Below are positions 29,092 through 38,206 of a DNA stretch of 38,793 nt, in pieces (positions within the stretch are counted from its first letter, which is position 1; every line of letters starts with the position of its first letter). The DNA comes from Oscillospiraceae bacterium (GTDB lineage: Bacteria; Bacillota; Clostridia; Oscillospirales; Acutalibacteraceae). The position numbers were made by a program, and so were the translations under genes. The stretch covers positions 1-38,793 of the forward strand of contig SVOK01000019.1 of NCBI GenBank assembly GCA_015066445.1. Direction: 5' to 3'. The notes under the pieces were generated by a model that saw only the letters and a list, made by a program, of their open reading frames with translations, ran no database searches and was not told the origin of the DNA.

Positions 29092-29118
29092 TCAAAAAAG
29101 AATTTGGAGGGATTTTTT

Positions 29119-29517
29119 ATGCTACAGTTTTATTTAAGTTTAATTGAAACCGAAGAAGAAAAATCGAAGTTTGAACGACTTTACAATCAATATAAGAAAT
29201 TACTGAAATATATTGCCGTTGATATGCTTCAAGATGAGTTTTTAGCAGAAGATGCCGTTCATGAAGCATTTATTAAATTGACACGCCATATCAAAGGTGT
29301 TGACGAAAACGACCGTCACAAAACCAAAGCATTTGTCGTTATAATTATTAAAAGTGTTTGCATAGATATGCTTAGAAAGGACAGTAATAAAGCTACCATA
29401 GTCAGTTTAGAAGAAATGGATAATATGGGTTATACCAGTAATGATTCGTTTGAAAATATAGAATTGCAGGAAGTTTATTCTGGTGGAGTGAAGCAGAAAC
29501 TTGGACAACAACTGTAA
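29119..29517 (+). pseudogene. sigma-70-family factor lacking region 4, fused at its 3' end to foreign sequence
   Basis: 132 residues from the ATG at 29119, seven bases after GGAGGG (the frame back to 29104 is not needed). Region 2 is clear: FERLYNQYKKLLKYIAVDML, EFLAEDAVHEAFIKLTRHI and TKAFVVIIIKSVCIDMLRKD match the DNA-melting and -10 recognition helices of small ECF-like sigma factors. After SFENIELQEVY, where region 4 should follow, the sequence changes and stops after ~12 residues. The following DNA is the 3' end of a different gene in another frame (next entry). A deletion or recombination thus removed region 4; without it -35 recognition is lost, so the gene is probably inactive or acts as a decoy. 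Confidence 0.8.
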
Positions 29518-32700: not shown

Positions 32701-35700
32701 ATATTACCGAAGCTATAGACAAATGGCAAAGACTTTCATTAACATTCACTGCCAAGAGGTCAGAATATGTAAGTATTTGCATGAATCTTTGCGGAGCTAC
32801 AGGCAGCGTTTATTTTGATAATATTCAGCTTGAAGTAGGCGACCTTTCGGACTATAATCTTCTTGAAAACGCAGGATTTGAAGATGATAACTCCTCTTCG
32901 CCGAGAGGCTGGAGTCCCTCAACAAACAAAGGAAGTATAAGCGAAACAACTAAAATATCAGGTAATAGAGCAATTTCTATTCAAGGTAGTGCCAGTATAC
33001 ACAAGCATTATCTGCAAACATTAGCTGTTCCAAACGGTAAAAACGGTGACACCTATGTTGCCTCTGCCTTTGCTAAAGCCAATTCTGTTCCTGCAATTGG
33101 TTGGCGATTTACTGTTTTGATACGTTTTCTTAAAAACGGTAGTATGGTTAATGAAGAAAATATTTTATTTAATTCATATACTACAGAATGGCAAAAAATT
33201 GCCGGTGTTGCTAAGGCAACAGGCGACTATGATACGGTTACGTTTTGGTTGCTTTATTATAACAACTGCAATACGGTTTATTTCGACAATGCCCAGCTTA
33301 TTAAGGATACCTTTGGAAACACATATAAGTATGACGAAGAAGGTAACCTTGTAAGCAGTATAGATTTACAGGATAAAGAAGAATACACCTTTAAATACAA
33401 TATAAGTAATAAGCTTATAAAGGAAAACTCGATTACAGGCAGCAAAATTCTTTACAGCTATACTTCACCCTATAACAATGAGCTGAGAACCGTTACCGCA
33501 GGCGGGGTTTCTTCTCTTTATACTTATGACGATAACGGAAATCCTACCTCCTCGGTCACAATGGGAAGCGATTTGGTTGACGGTAAGGTTTATTATTTAC
33601 AAAATGTGTATTATTCAAAATTCCTCGGCGTCACAGAGGAATATCTTGATATTTACGGACATGCCGCTATGGGCTTAAAGGTCACATTAGACGATTACAC
33701 CGACAGCTACCCTTACCAACGCTGGATATTACGCAAAAATAATGAAACCTCATATTTTCTATCCCCAGAAAATTATCCCTCAATGTATTTAGGTGTTTGC
33801 TATACTGCAGACGGTGTAGGACTTGCCACATACGCCTTTGGCGAGGTGCAATATCATACACTCCAGTTAAATAAAACATACGGAAATATATACTGTATGG
33901 AATTTTATAGAAATACCGGCTATAACATTGATACAGACGGTAGTAATGTTTATGCTTATTCAAAGCACGGCGGAGAAATTCAGCAATTCGCATTTATCCC
34001 CGTTGAAGAAAATATGAGCGTCACTACCCCAGCAATAACCTCTACCGCCACATATACCGAAAGCGGTGAATACACAAGCTCTGTAACCGACAGCAGAGGC
34101 AATACCACACACTATGAATATAATGAGGATAGAGGCTACTTAAAATCCGAAACAAATGCAAAGGGTGTTAAAACAAGCTATACCTACAACTCGGGCGAGC
34201 TGCTTGAAAAGGTAAATGTCGGCAGTTCTAATGTTACCTACGGTTATGATAACGCAAAACGGTTATCCTCTATAACCTCCCCCTCGGGTACTGTCTACGG
34301 CTTTACCTATGACAGCTTCGGCAGAAGCGATACTGTTAAGGTGGGCTCAAGAACTTTAAGCGACTATCTCTACGACTCTAAGGGCAGAGCGGATACCTTT
34401 ACCTACGGTAACGGCACTACCGTTAAATACGGCTATGACCACCTTAACCGCCAGACCTCGACTACAATTAACAATGTGCTGAGGTATAATAAGCTTTATG
34501 ACGGTCATTCAAGACTTTTGCAGATTGAGGATATTTTACTCGGCAAAAAAGTTAGGTATGAATACGATATTCTTGACCGTGCTGTCGGTGAACGGCTTAT
34601 TAACACAGCTACAAATAAAGTGTATGCTGATTTAAAAATCCGTTATGACGATACCAAAAACCGAGTGGCTGGCTATGACGTTAATATTGAGGGTATTTCT
34701 AAAGCTACAGATTTTGTCTACGGCGGAAACGGTCTTGACCCCGATATTATCTCCTCAGTAAAGCATAACAACACAACAAAATTAAGCTATGCTTATGATA
34801 GCTTAAACCGCTTAAAAACAAGAACAATAAGCACCTCTACCCCATTTGTTACCGAATACGGATTTTTAAACGGTAATGGCACAATGCGCACAACCACTCT
34901 TGTAAAGACGGTTAAGAATGGCAATGATACTCTGCTGTATTCTTATGATAAATTAGGTAATATTACAAGCATAACTAAAAATAATAATTTAGTAGAAAGC
35001 TATACATACGATAACCTTAACCAGCTTAAAACCGTTACTGTTGAGAAAGGTGAGGTTGACGATGTATACACCTATACCTATGATAACGGCGGTAATATTT
35101 TAAGTGTAACATTAAATGGCGAGGTTATTAAAAGCTATACCTACGGTGACAGTGAGTGGAAAGACCTGTTAACTAATTACAACGGTGAGCGAGATTCTGA
35201 GGGACAGATAAAGGTATATCAATATGACGCTATAGGTAATCCCCTCTCCTACCGTAACGGTATGAGCTTTACTTGGGCAGACGGCAGAAAGCTTGCAACT
35301 GTTACTAAAGGAACAGACAGCATAAGCTATACCTACAATTCTGACGGATTAAGAACAAGCAAAACCGTAAACGGAACTGCAACCGAATATTACTGGCTTA
35401 ACGGTATGCTTCAAGGTCAGAAAACAGGCAGTGAGTATATAATTTTCTTACACGACGAAAACGGCACAGCCTACGGTTTCTTGCTTAAAAACGGTACTAC
35501 CGAGGAATACTATTATTACATATTCAATGCTCAGGGCGATGTTATAGGCATACTTGACAGCACAGGCACAAAAGTGGTAGAATATACTTATAATGTATGG
35601 GGTGAGCTTTTAGGCATAACAGGTACACTCAAAGACACTATAGGACAAAAGAATCCGCTTAGGTATCGTGGGTATTACTTTGATAGTGAGACGGGGTTCT

Positions 35701-36387: not shown

Positions 36388-36771
36388 ATGCCTAGATACA
36401 ACAAAAGCAACACCCAAGAATTAAAAGATTTTTTATACAACAGTTATGTTCATGATGCAAAATTAGAAAATATCAAATATGACTGTAGAGAAGATAATAT
36501 CAAAATTGAATTATTTAATCCAATTTTTAATGTAAAGATTGCCTTAACCTTCCTCGATATAAGAATCACGTTTACAATTAAAGGCGAATGGTCTGAAAAT
36601 CGTGAAACAGTGGTTTCACTTACTGCAGAAGAAGATTTTTCATACTTGCAGAATTATCTCTTAAAGCACAACAAATGTATGGAAGATTCTCTTTACCTAC
36701 TGTTTCAAATGTTCTCTGGAGATGAATTGCATATCGTATCCAAAGAAGTAATTATTGAGCTTGTTAAGTGA
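36388..36771 (+). CDS. candidate immunity protein of the Rhs toxin
   Basis: 127 residues from the ATG at 36388, with GGGAGG seven bases upstream; the start lies 13 bases after the toxin stop, so translation is coupled. No signal peptide or membrane helix, consistent with neutralising a cytosolic toxin tip. The sequence has an N-terminal helix, a beta sheet (YVHDAKLENIKYDC, NIKIELFN, NVKIALTFLDIRITFTIKGE) and C-terminal helices. I recognise no named immunity family; assignment rests on position and size. Confidence 0.7.
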   Translation: MPRYNKSNTQELKDFLYNSYVHDAKLENIKYDCREDNIKIELFNPIFNVKIALTFLDIRITFTIKGEWSENRETVVSLTAEEDFSYLQNYLLKHNKCMEDSLYLLFQMFSGDELHIVSKEVIIELVK

Positions 36772-36793
36772 CATTGACTTGTTCAATGGACAG

Positions 36794-36837
36794 GTCAATC
36801 AGGGGAAGGTCAATCAGGGGACGGTTCTGTGATTGAC
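36794..36837. repeat. palindromic repeat, GTCAATCA type, with partial copy
   Basis: Full unit 36809-36837: arms GTCAATCA / TGATTGAC around GGGGACGGTTCTG. A left-half copy, GTCAATCAGGGGA, precedes it at 36794-36806. Confidence 0.85.
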
Positions 36838-36847
36838 ACAGCTTTAT

Positions 36848-36897
36848 AACACAGGGGACTAACACAGGGACTAACACAGGGGACGGTTCTCTGTGTT
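36848..36897. repeat. palindromic repeat, AACACA type, with two partial copies
   Basis: Full unit 36873-36897: AACACAG / CTGTGTT around GGGACGGTTCT. Two tandem left halves precede it (36848-36860 and 36861-36872). Confidence 0.88.
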
Positions 36898-36907
36898 GTG
36901 CTTATAT

Positions 36908-36932
36908 AACACAGGGGACGGTTCTCTGTGTT
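36908..36932. repeat. palindromic repeat, AACACA type
   Basis: A 25-bp unit identical to 36873-36897; the Rhs fragment begins just after it at about 36938. Confidence 0.88.
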
Positions 36933-36937
36933 GTGCT

Positions 36938-38026
36938 TACGACAGCTTCGGCAGAAGCGATACTGTTAAGGTGGGCTCAAGAACTTTAAGCGACTATCTC
37001 TATGATTCTAAAGGAAGAGTGGATACCTTTACCTATGGTAACGGCACTACCGTTAAATACGGCTATGACCACCTTAACCGTCAAACCTCGACCACAATTA
37101 ACAATGTGCTGAGGTATAATAAGCTTTATGACGGTCTTTCAAGACTTTTAGCGGTTGAGGATATTCTGCTCGGCAGAAAGGTTAGGTATGAATACGATAT
37201 TCTTGACCGTGCTGTCGGTGAACTGCTTATTAACACAGCTACAAATAAAGTGTATGCTGATTTAAAAATCCGTTATGACGATACCAAAAACCGAGTGGCT
37301 GGCTATGACGTTAATATTGAGGGTATTTCTAAAGCTACAGATTTTGTCTATGGCGGAAACGGTCTTGACCCAGATATTATCTCCTCAGTTAAGCATAACA
37401 ACACAACAAAATTAAGCTATGCTTATGATAGCTTAAACCGCTTAAAAACAAGAACAATAAGCACCTCTACCCCATTTGTTACCGAATACGGATTTTTAAA
37501 CGGTAATGGCACAATGCGCACAACCACTCTTGTAAAGACGGTTAAGAATGGCAATGATACTCTGCAATATGCTTATGATAAATTAGGTAATATTACAAGC
37601 ATAACTAAAAATAATAATTTAGTAGAAAGCTACACCTATGATAACCTTAACCAGCTTAAAACAGTTACAAACGGTACAGATACTTGGGAATACACATACG
37701 ACAACGGCGGTAATATTTTAAGCGTTAAAAAGAACGGTGTAGTCGAAAAATCTTATACCTACGGTGATACCGAATGGAAAGACTTACTTACCAATTACAA
37801 CGGTACAAATATTACTTATGATGCAATTGGTAATCCCCTCTCCTACCGTGGCGGTATGAGCTTTACTTGGGCTGACGGCAGAAAGCTTGCAACTGTTACT
37901 AAGGGTACAGACAGCATAAGCTATACCTACAATTCTGACGGATTGCGAAATTCGAAAACCGTTAACGGCGTTACTACCGAATATTACTGGCTTAACGGTA
38001 TGCTACAGGGACAAAAAACAGGCAGG
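36938..38026 (+). pseudogene. Rhs/YD-repeat fragment bounded by palindromes
   Basis: About 1.09 kb nearly copying the YD-repeat part of the large Rhs gene (34309-35430), 363 codons from AYDSFGRSDTVKVGSRTL to YYWLNGMLQGQKTG. It has no ribosome site, no signal peptide, no Rhs core end and no toxin tip. The open frame (36893-38089) enters and leaves through the flanking palindromes (read in frame as NTGDGSLCC). Part is almost identical to the parent (37251-37560 against 34621-34930, only a few differences) while the ends differ more, for example the linker around TNGTDTWEYTYDNG is changed. This looks like a displaced Rhs segment with local gene conversion rather than a functional gene. Confidence 0.85.
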
Positions 38027-38051
38027 AACACAGGGGACGGTTCTCTGTGTT
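38027..38051. repeat. palindromic repeat, AACACA type
   Basis: Same 25-bp unit; joins the end of the YD fragment to a CBM fragment. Confidence 0.88.
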
Positions 38052-38108
38052 GTATACCACCGAATGGCAAAAAATTGCAGGTGCAGTAAAAGCCAAAGGA
38101 GATTACAT
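38052..38108 (+). pseudogene. short CBM fragment of an Rhs gene
   Basis: Encodes TTEWQKIAGAVKAKGDYI, matching TTEWQKIAGVAKATGDYD of the second CBM-like module in the large Rhs gene (about 33178-33230). In the parent gene this part lies before the YD segment; here it follows it, so the order is shuffled. It ends at the next palindrome. Confidence 0.8.
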
Positions 38109-38133
38109 AACACATGGGACGGTTCTCTGTGTT
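38109..38133. repeat. palindromic repeat, AACACA type, one changed base pair
   Basis: AACACATGGGACGG... CTCTGTGTT, a variant unit with T in place of G. Confidence 0.8.
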
Positions 38134-38155
38134 GACAAGTTTGTTGTTATAGGAT

Positions 38156-38183
38156 AACACAGGGGACGGTTCTGTGATTGACG
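38156..38183. repeat. hybrid palindromic repeat
   Basis: The left half is AACACAGGGGACGG (type of 36873) and the right half TTCTGTGATTGAC (type of 36809). The two half types have recombined, and the end TTGACG serves as a -35 box (see next entry). Confidence 0.75.
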
Positions 38184-38206
38184 GGTTGGGTTTTAAATGA
38201 TATAAT
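38178..38206 (+). promoter_or_regulatory. promoter of the transposase, -35 inside the palindrome
   Basis: TTGACG at 38178-38183 and TATAAT at 38201-38206, spacer 17, a near-consensus promoter. The -35 hexamer is the terminal arm of the hybrid repeat. Confidence 0.75.

Follow-up and report, generated by a model that had tools for sequence, protein, structure and literature searches.

REP-like palindromes beside a RAYT transposase coincide with the edges of copied Rhs gene pieces in Clostridia

Introduction

The closest described systems to the locus reported here are the REP/BIME/REPIN palindromes and their RAYT genes ('REPtrons'), in which a RAYT-family HUH single-strand transposase is flanked by its palindromes. 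Excerpts of the work on the E. coli enzyme report that TnpA_REP cuts and rejoins single-stranded REP, and that it recognises REP and not iREP (PMC8266576). REPtrons are said, in an excerpt of a second source, not to transpose as a unit (PMC6006769). The rAID systems of Bacteroidales are defined, in the accessible part of their description, by short genes in rows, with a conserved intergenic motif, and by a tyrosine enzyme that rearranges DNA (PMC12247911). In CDI loci, displaced toxin tips with a small gene (orphan CdiA-CT/CdiI) are found 3´ of the full-length gene, and the accessible text calls the mechanisms of toxin/immunity module exchange unknown (PMC3150448).

Displaced toxin/immunity modules have no agreed mechanism of movement, and the 25-bp palindrome described here, which we call PAL, offers a breakpoint that is defined by its sequence and for which there is a candidate enzyme. 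We analysed a window of 38,793 nucleotides, the whole stretch of DNA under study, which is the entire contig C31 of an assembly of 1.745 Mb in 42 contigs. A sequence-only reading of this window had suggested that a palindrome/transposase pair moves or reshuffles pieces of an Rhs gene. Because PAL and RAYT also occur in a cultured, completely sequenced strain, the question becomes testable. Among the matches listed in the open-access literature, we found neither an earlier printed description of the PAL system (the listed matches look like unrelated primers) nor a paper that treats RAYT together with Rhs.

Results

The intact Rhs gene of the window, with its core, its variable tip, and the small ORF behind it, has the layout of an Rhs polymorphic toxin locus with putative toxin and immunity roles (Table 1). 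The small ORF matched no Pfam or NCBIfam family. Downstream lie the palindromes, two further Rhs pieces, and the RAYT gene.

Table 1. Features of the window from the Rhs gene to the contig end
Feature	Position	Strand	Basis
Intact Rhs gene, 2220 aa	29712..36374	+	TIGR03696 70.7 bits, cut-off 32.5; RHS_repeat
Small ORF directly 3´ of Rhs, putative immunity gene by position	36388..36771	+	ORF list
Extra PAL left half, TCAATCA arm + GGGGA	36793..36806	+	Read from sequence
PAL 1, arms of TCAATCA/TGATTGA type, core at 36818	36811..36835	+	Core match, arm typing
Two extra left halves of PAL, AACACAGGGGACT + AACACAGGGACT	36847..36871	+	Read from sequence
PAL 2, AACACAG/CTGTGTT	36873..36897	+	Core match, arm typing
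PAL 3, AACACAG/CTGTGTT; repeats PAL 2 together with flank (33 bp, 100%)	36908..36932	+	
Rhs YD-repeat piece, 87.9% to 34308-35431	36938..38025	+	Alignment
PAL 4	38027..38051	+	Core match
Small Rhs piece, homologous to 33177-33230, frame differs from YD piece	38052..38108	+	
PAL 5, left arm with one mismatch (AACACAT)	38109..38133	+	Core match
PAL 6, hybrid arms AACACAG/TGATTGA, core at 38163, at RAYT promoter	38156..38180	+	
Promoter-like TTGACG, 17 nt, TATAAT; overlaps right arm of PAL 6	38178..38206	+	By eye
RAYT (REP-associated tyrosine transposase), cut by contig end	38225..38793	+	NCBIfam NF047646 84.4 bits, cut-off 80; Y1_Tnp 57.6 bits

PAL consists of a fixed asymmetric core, GGGACGGTTCT, between variable self-complementary arms. 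With at most one mismatch, the core GGGGACGGTTCT matches the window six times against a mean expectation of 0.08, and none of 100 shuffles reaches six. In loci of the genus, PAL reads as 7 nt, GGGACGGTTC, T (in 188 of 206 sequences), and 7 nt, and no position outside the arms exceeds 0.25 bit in these 206 sequences, which were chosen by the exact 10-base core. Among 150 distinct 25-mers, the arms form 3.76 Watson-Crick pairs of 7, compared with 2.84 when shuffled and a maximum of 3.15 in 1000 shuffles. The arms vary yet stay complementary, and PAL is a palindrome with conserved pairing. Where both arms could be typed, 36 of 118 PALs are hybrids, most clearly those at 38163 in the window and at 1423 in L140; many hybrids are one base off a matching pair and need no recombination.

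The exact 11-mer core is present, often in clusters, in 65 of the 99 genomes searched (the window's own genome included). Copy number ranges from 0 to 14 exact cores in the genus genomes listed to 374 in G095, a genome of the same order. The window's own genome contains 11 exact 11-mers, compared with one for a reversed control; with one mismatch allowed, the counts are 33 and 17, so that isolated one-mismatch cores mean little. The 23-nt PAL pattern was also seen in three IMG/VR viral contigs (L212, L213, and L214), in one of them twice.

The sequence-only reading had placed three palindromes at the edges of two Rhs pieces. All three (PAL 3 to PAL 5) are there, but as part of a set of six (36811-38180). 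The YD-repeat piece aligns with the intact gene over 1124 columns, and its ends lie 6 bp and 2 bp from PAL 25-mers, in keeping with the claim that the pieces stop within a few bases of the palindromes. For the 57-bp piece, which had been called a CBM piece, the Rhs origin is supported by a DNA match over only 31 bp (90%, E 6e-6, 38.2 bits, against a maximum of 30.2 bits among 200 shuffled queries) and a peptide match of 18 residues (YTTEWQKIAGAVKAKGDY and YTTEWQKIAGVAKATGDY), but the gene holds no exact copy and the piece is out of frame. Its source lies 5´ of the YD region in the Rhs gene, at about 33177-33230, so the order of the two pieces is swapped, as had been proposed. Both pieces end 6 bp or less from PALs, with the RAYT gene next to them. 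The palindromes do pass the open frame (as NTGDGSLCC), as the earlier reading held, but the frames of the small piece and the YD piece differ: within the long frame, 36893-38089, the small piece is translated as IPPNGKKLQVQ and a stop follows. Another contig of this genome, C19, has a third Rhs piece (127 bp, 99.2% identity to 34277-34403) at a distance of 29 bp from a PAL (L003). Since their identity is 88% or less, the window pieces are not fresh copies of the upstream gene; the window is a worn example, in which two pieces of other Rhs alleles stand between PALs and adjoin a RAYT gene.

The protein encoded beside the palindromes is, from its profile matches, a member of the RAYT family, the assignment made by the earlier reading. 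The contig ends after 189 aa, and the relatives shown reach about 250 aa. Residues H60, H62, Y112, and Y119, which include the HUH motif and a candidate catalytic tyrosine, are invariant in 13 of 13 aligned sequences. The sole match of a RAYT profile in the PDB was 4er8, TnpArep (E 4e-4), and a PDB search with the single sequence gave no match. Within the genus, NF047646 is over its cut-off in 9 of 62 genomes and at E of 0.001 or less in 42 of 62. Plasmids held no close relatives: all 27 records were below 60% identity, with 34% the best listed.

A RAYT scan gave 70 named loci, mostly in Clostridia. Where enough flank was present, a sense PAL stands just upstream of the gene in 44 of 65 loci and an inverted PAL downstream in 43 of 60; PALs in inverted orientation flank the gene in 35 of the 56 loci testable on both sides. 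The same order, sense upstream and inverted downstream, is found in 12 of 13 RAYT-bearing PAL intervals of the genus. Among the 21 named loci that have no upstream PAL, eight have a changed core at that place, either GACGGGGTT (L051, L061, L069, L071, and L073) or a near variant of it (L074, L084, and L086). It is as if, in these RAYT relatives, the enzyme and the core that normally reads GGGACGGTTCT change together. Alignments between RAYT loci start and stop at PALs (L014 and L025, for example, are 90% identical over 856 columns) and, across different contexts, the unit appears to behave as expected of a mobile one. We also noticed RAYT copies shortened by a PAL (L044 3148-4381 and L075 8001-8414), the former standing in tandem ahead of another copy (98%).

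Rhs genes of the genus have PALs beside them far more often than random placement would give. TIGR03696 has 25 matches in 16 of 62 genomes, 23 of them over the cut-off in 14 genomes. A co-oriented (sense) PAL lies 2 kb or less downstream of eight of these 23 (the two matches below the cut-off left out), in G000, G005, G012, G027 (twice), G038, G055, and G059, against 0.06 expected with random placement and rounded genome sizes (P about 4e-16); 15 of the 23 have none within that distance. From the other side, nine of the 70 named loci with RAYT contain Rhs-like sequence, and two of these nine overlap on one chromosome. The association of PAL, RAYT, and Rhs noted in the window recurs in other species, with RAYT as the candidate for the cutting enzyme.

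Rhs C-terminal modules stand between PALs in several species, the cultured Geosporobacter among them. G027 (L103) has an Rhs gene, an ORF, a PAL, an Rhs C-terminal part, an ORF, and a PAL. In RGIG9001 (L050), Rhs, an ORF, PALs, RAYT, and an inverted PAL are followed by two further modules, both with an ORF and both beginning at an inverted PAL; one carries a tip and the other an Rhs core/tip. The PAL-bordered tip/ORF pairs of L018 and L050 are weak evidence for exchange, since the homologues are remote (tips 32% over 100 aa). In a second locus of the window's kind, L036, an Rhs YD piece is flush with a PAL ahead of RAYT, its opposite end 51 bp from a PAL. Geosporobacter ferrireducens (L056 and L057) has a PAL, two successive units of an Rhs C-terminus with ORFs and a PAL, then RAYT and an inverted PAL. 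Three ORFs interrupt one Rhs module there (L056 594-2614, L057 11747-13767) and resemble an insertion sequence of the IS21 type.

The Geosporobacter locus bears on whether metagenome assembly could have joined unrelated Rhs pieces at a repeat. Nearly all genus loci do come from incomplete, many-contig assemblies, and several contigs end at PALs or at RAYT. The same architecture is nevertheless present in the complete chromosome of the cultured strain IRF9, where the PAL arms are weaker, and in many separate assemblies, and we consider such an artefact very improbable.

The strongest evidence on the junctions comes from DNA of which one copy is bordered by a PAL and another, at that edge, is not. 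Five recently copied segments (96-100% identity) are joined to a PAL with 0-4 bp between them. In the first, an ORF lies between PALs in G052 (L017), and the same 966 columns, 99.7% identical, occur in another species, G012 (L104); the L104 copy includes the ORF behind Rhs and starts in the last 56 bp of the Rhs frame, with no PAL at that point, and both copies have a PAL on the opposite side. L044 has a 121-bp stretch (100%) whose two ends are both flush with PALs; its other copy in the locus is not flush, although a PAL lies 24 bp from one end. In L049, 167 bp (99.4%) end 4 bp from a PAL, and in L105 a gene end and its PAL stand in a tandem copy (96%). In G055, finally, one contig passes from the PAL edge into Rhs and a second carries the same 141 bp with another Rhs sequence upstream; the join is exact and shows no microhomology. 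The two contigs are C27 (L030) and C54 (L210), and L030 both starts and ends with the same 141 bp, from the exact PAL edge; it represents either a tandem arrangement of an Rhs-C-terminus/ORF/PAL unit, about 4.3 kb long, or a circle. In L050, likewise, two different sequences, one of them an Rhs core, adjoin identical copies of a 101-bp stretch that has a PAL at its end.

Taken together, the non-RAYT alignments that were tested have 13 ends flush with a PAL (-3 to +6 bp of its edge, the partner having no PAL within 70 bp), compared with a mean of 2.1 and a maximum of 7 in 200 random shifts; the window itself contributes two of these ends, and for another (L119) the partner carries a half-PAL. 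Alignments mostly within RAYT units were excluded from this set. Seven of the 70 named loci were excluded as repeat contigs from the counts of flush ends, half-PAL polarity, and array ORFs, and were kept for the RAYT flanks and for Rhs in RAYT loci; six of them match a contig already counted and one, L037, does not and was wrongly excluded. The excess of flush ends and the L017/L104 ORF give support to the suggestion that Rhs pieces are moved by the palindrome/transposase pair.

These junctions also weigh on the idea that PAL and RAYT are ordinary selfish elements of the REP-like type, best able to persist where DNA is dispensable and duplicated, as in toxin arrays, the pieces themselves being made by ordinary homologous or illegitimate recombination and decay, with PALs inserted beside or into them. 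The genus does contain Rhs module arrays that are PAL-free even at two core mismatches (three modules in G032; also G057 and G053), and PALs also border ordinary genes unrelated to Rhs, as in L017, which holds a GDSL lipase and an LRR-dockerin gene. The sequence-only reading had itself named palindromes spread evenly over intergenic regions, together with Rhs fragments that lack them in related strains, as signs of coincidence, and these observations go part of the way towards that. Homologous recombination between immunity paralogues is, moreover, documented in Firmicutes in the accessible part of PMC9484751. With recent breakpoints 0-4 bp from PAL in all five cases, however, PAL would have to insert exactly at an existing junction each time, and we therefore think this explanation unlikely. 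A search of paired loci found no empty insertion sites for PAL, only RAYT-unit alignments and one alignment between PAL repeats.

Partial palindromes have a strong polarity. Counting as a left half an arm plus GG without the full core within 60 nt upstream, and right halves downstream, 41 of 209 distinct PALs in genus loci have a left half only and one has a right half only (three of 209 by an alternative right-half rule); in named loci the figures are 18 and five of 188. This matters for the possibility that the PAL hairpin stalls replication and that template switching, with no part for RAYT, makes duplications and fragments ending at PALs. Slippage of this kind would leave tandem copies in which one of the breaks falls at a PAL, as in L105 and G055, and several genomes carry PALs without a RAYT match (among them G042, with 10 exact cores, and G002, G014, G017, G023, G026, G031, G036, and G041), although assemblies are incomplete. 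The hairpin is nearly symmetric, however, and an enzyme that reads one strand has a direction, so the left-half bias speaks against plain slippage, although the G-run on the left side of the core might produce the bias without an enzyme. Slippage also leaves aside the fixed core common to the RAYT lineage and the changed core that stands at the same place beside sister RAYTs, and we rate it as distinctly improbable.

Between PALs lie short rows of genes. Of 53 PAL-PAL intervals of 250-3000 bp in genus loci, 13 contain RAYT, 27 a single ORF, and 13 several ORFs, and in 21 of the 27 single-ORF intervals a sense PAL is on the 3´ side. Homologues among 96 ORFs behind Rhs genes were found for 10 of 76 array ORFs and 13 of 527 controls (Fisher P 2e-4), a comparison that favours the array set because the control ORFs are probably largely housekeeping genes. 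A Pfam scan of 20 array or Rhs-neighbour ORFs returned only RDD protein, GDSL lipase, LRR-dockerin, ankyrin repeat, and Rhs repeat families, with one further match under its cut-off. A strict array of one-gene cassettes is weakened by the 13 multi-ORF intervals and by the ordinary genes of L017. A CRISPR-like array was considered and set aside, as were PALs acting as terminators only: T-runs follow some PALs, but the fixed asymmetric core and the link with RAYT would stay unexplained.

Discussion

On balance, we lean towards a REP/RAYT-like system of Clostridia whose palindrome edges are active breakpoints that have repeatedly reshaped Rhs loci. PAL-to-PAL units recur in different places, and copies of Rhs pieces, of an ORF behind Rhs, and of other gene ends adjoin, within a few bases, the outer side of a PAL arm, with homologous copies of the joined segments that have no PAL at that edge. 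That RAYT makes these junctions is our inference. In this proposal, RAYT would recognise one folded strand of PAL and cut at the hairpin base; the end released there would join another site, probably during replication. Joining would duplicate or insert a neighbouring stretch and leave it marked by a PAL. Next to an Rhs gene, one would expect Rhs pieces separated by PALs, modules of tip and immunity gene, and orphan genes standing singly. Against the proposal stand the 15 Rhs matches with no co-oriented PAL nearby, the PAL-free Rhs arrays, the PAL-bearing genomes that gave no RAYT match, the failure to find an empty insertion site, the ordinary genes of L017, and the age of the window's own pieces. 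PAL and RAYT may be a way for gut Clostridia to shuffle Rhs toxins and the small genes behind them; adaptive diversification of Rhs repertoires, the purpose suggested by the sequence-only reading, is unproven. If the proposal is correct, RAYT transposases gain a visible effect on host gene content.

A more far-reaching version, possible but held only tentatively, is that RAYT and its PALs form a single-strand-DNA gene-capture system of Clostridia, in which PAL, as a portable edge, tags, duplicates, and moves its neighbours and, at polymorphic-toxin loci, would build and exchange rows of toxin tips and orphan immunity genes. This would be the counterpart, with a REP-type transposase, of rAID and integrons.

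The REP systems are the nearest relatives. Besides a RAYT flanked by its palindromes, they share with PAL the close inverted pairs known as REPINs (30-60 bp apart in several PAL loci). Copy number is high in one relative, G095, and low in the genus of the window. PAL differs in edges that coincide with copied host genes, and the RAYT unit may move as a unit, judging from its PAL-bounded alignments between contexts, whereas REPtrons are said not to. No conserved GT[AG]G mark stands beside the hairpin in the 206 sequences, and we therefore describe PAL as REP-like and do not file it as a canonical REP. IS200/IS605 elements share the Y1 HUH transposase, hairpins near both ends, and a unit found in different contexts, but PAL hairpins have no conserved target motif beside them, the ends are themselves inverted palindromes, and the protein is of the RAYT type.

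Other systems resemble the arrays more than the enzyme. Short-gene rows, a conserved intergenic motif, and a DNA-rearranging tyrosine enzyme recall rAID, but here the enzyme is an HUH transposase and not a tyrosine recombinase, the hosts are Clostridia, the arrays are shorter and more mixed, and the immunity function is putative. In integrons, which have an IntI integrase, attC sites have conserved ends. PAL loci share with integron cassettes the order of one gene and then a folded palindrome, repeated several times, but PAL has 25 bp, variable arms, and no fixed ends; the integron was set aside, as PAL arm ends vary. Orphan CdiA-CT/CdiI modules and Rhs tips share the displaced tip and small gene downstream of a full-length gene; in the CDI loci, a conserved coding motif, VENN, marks off the modules (PMC3150448), whereas PALs border many of them here.

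A further observation concerns the gene on the other side of Rhs. Immediately 5´ of the Rhs gene, the window encodes a sigma-70 region 2 protein (29104-29517), and similar ORFs are found near Rhs or RAYT in L203 and L208. In G038 (L022 5135-5422), a gene resembling it is cut off at a PAL, and G028 (L208) has a longer, PAL-free copy of that gene (1554 columns, 89%).
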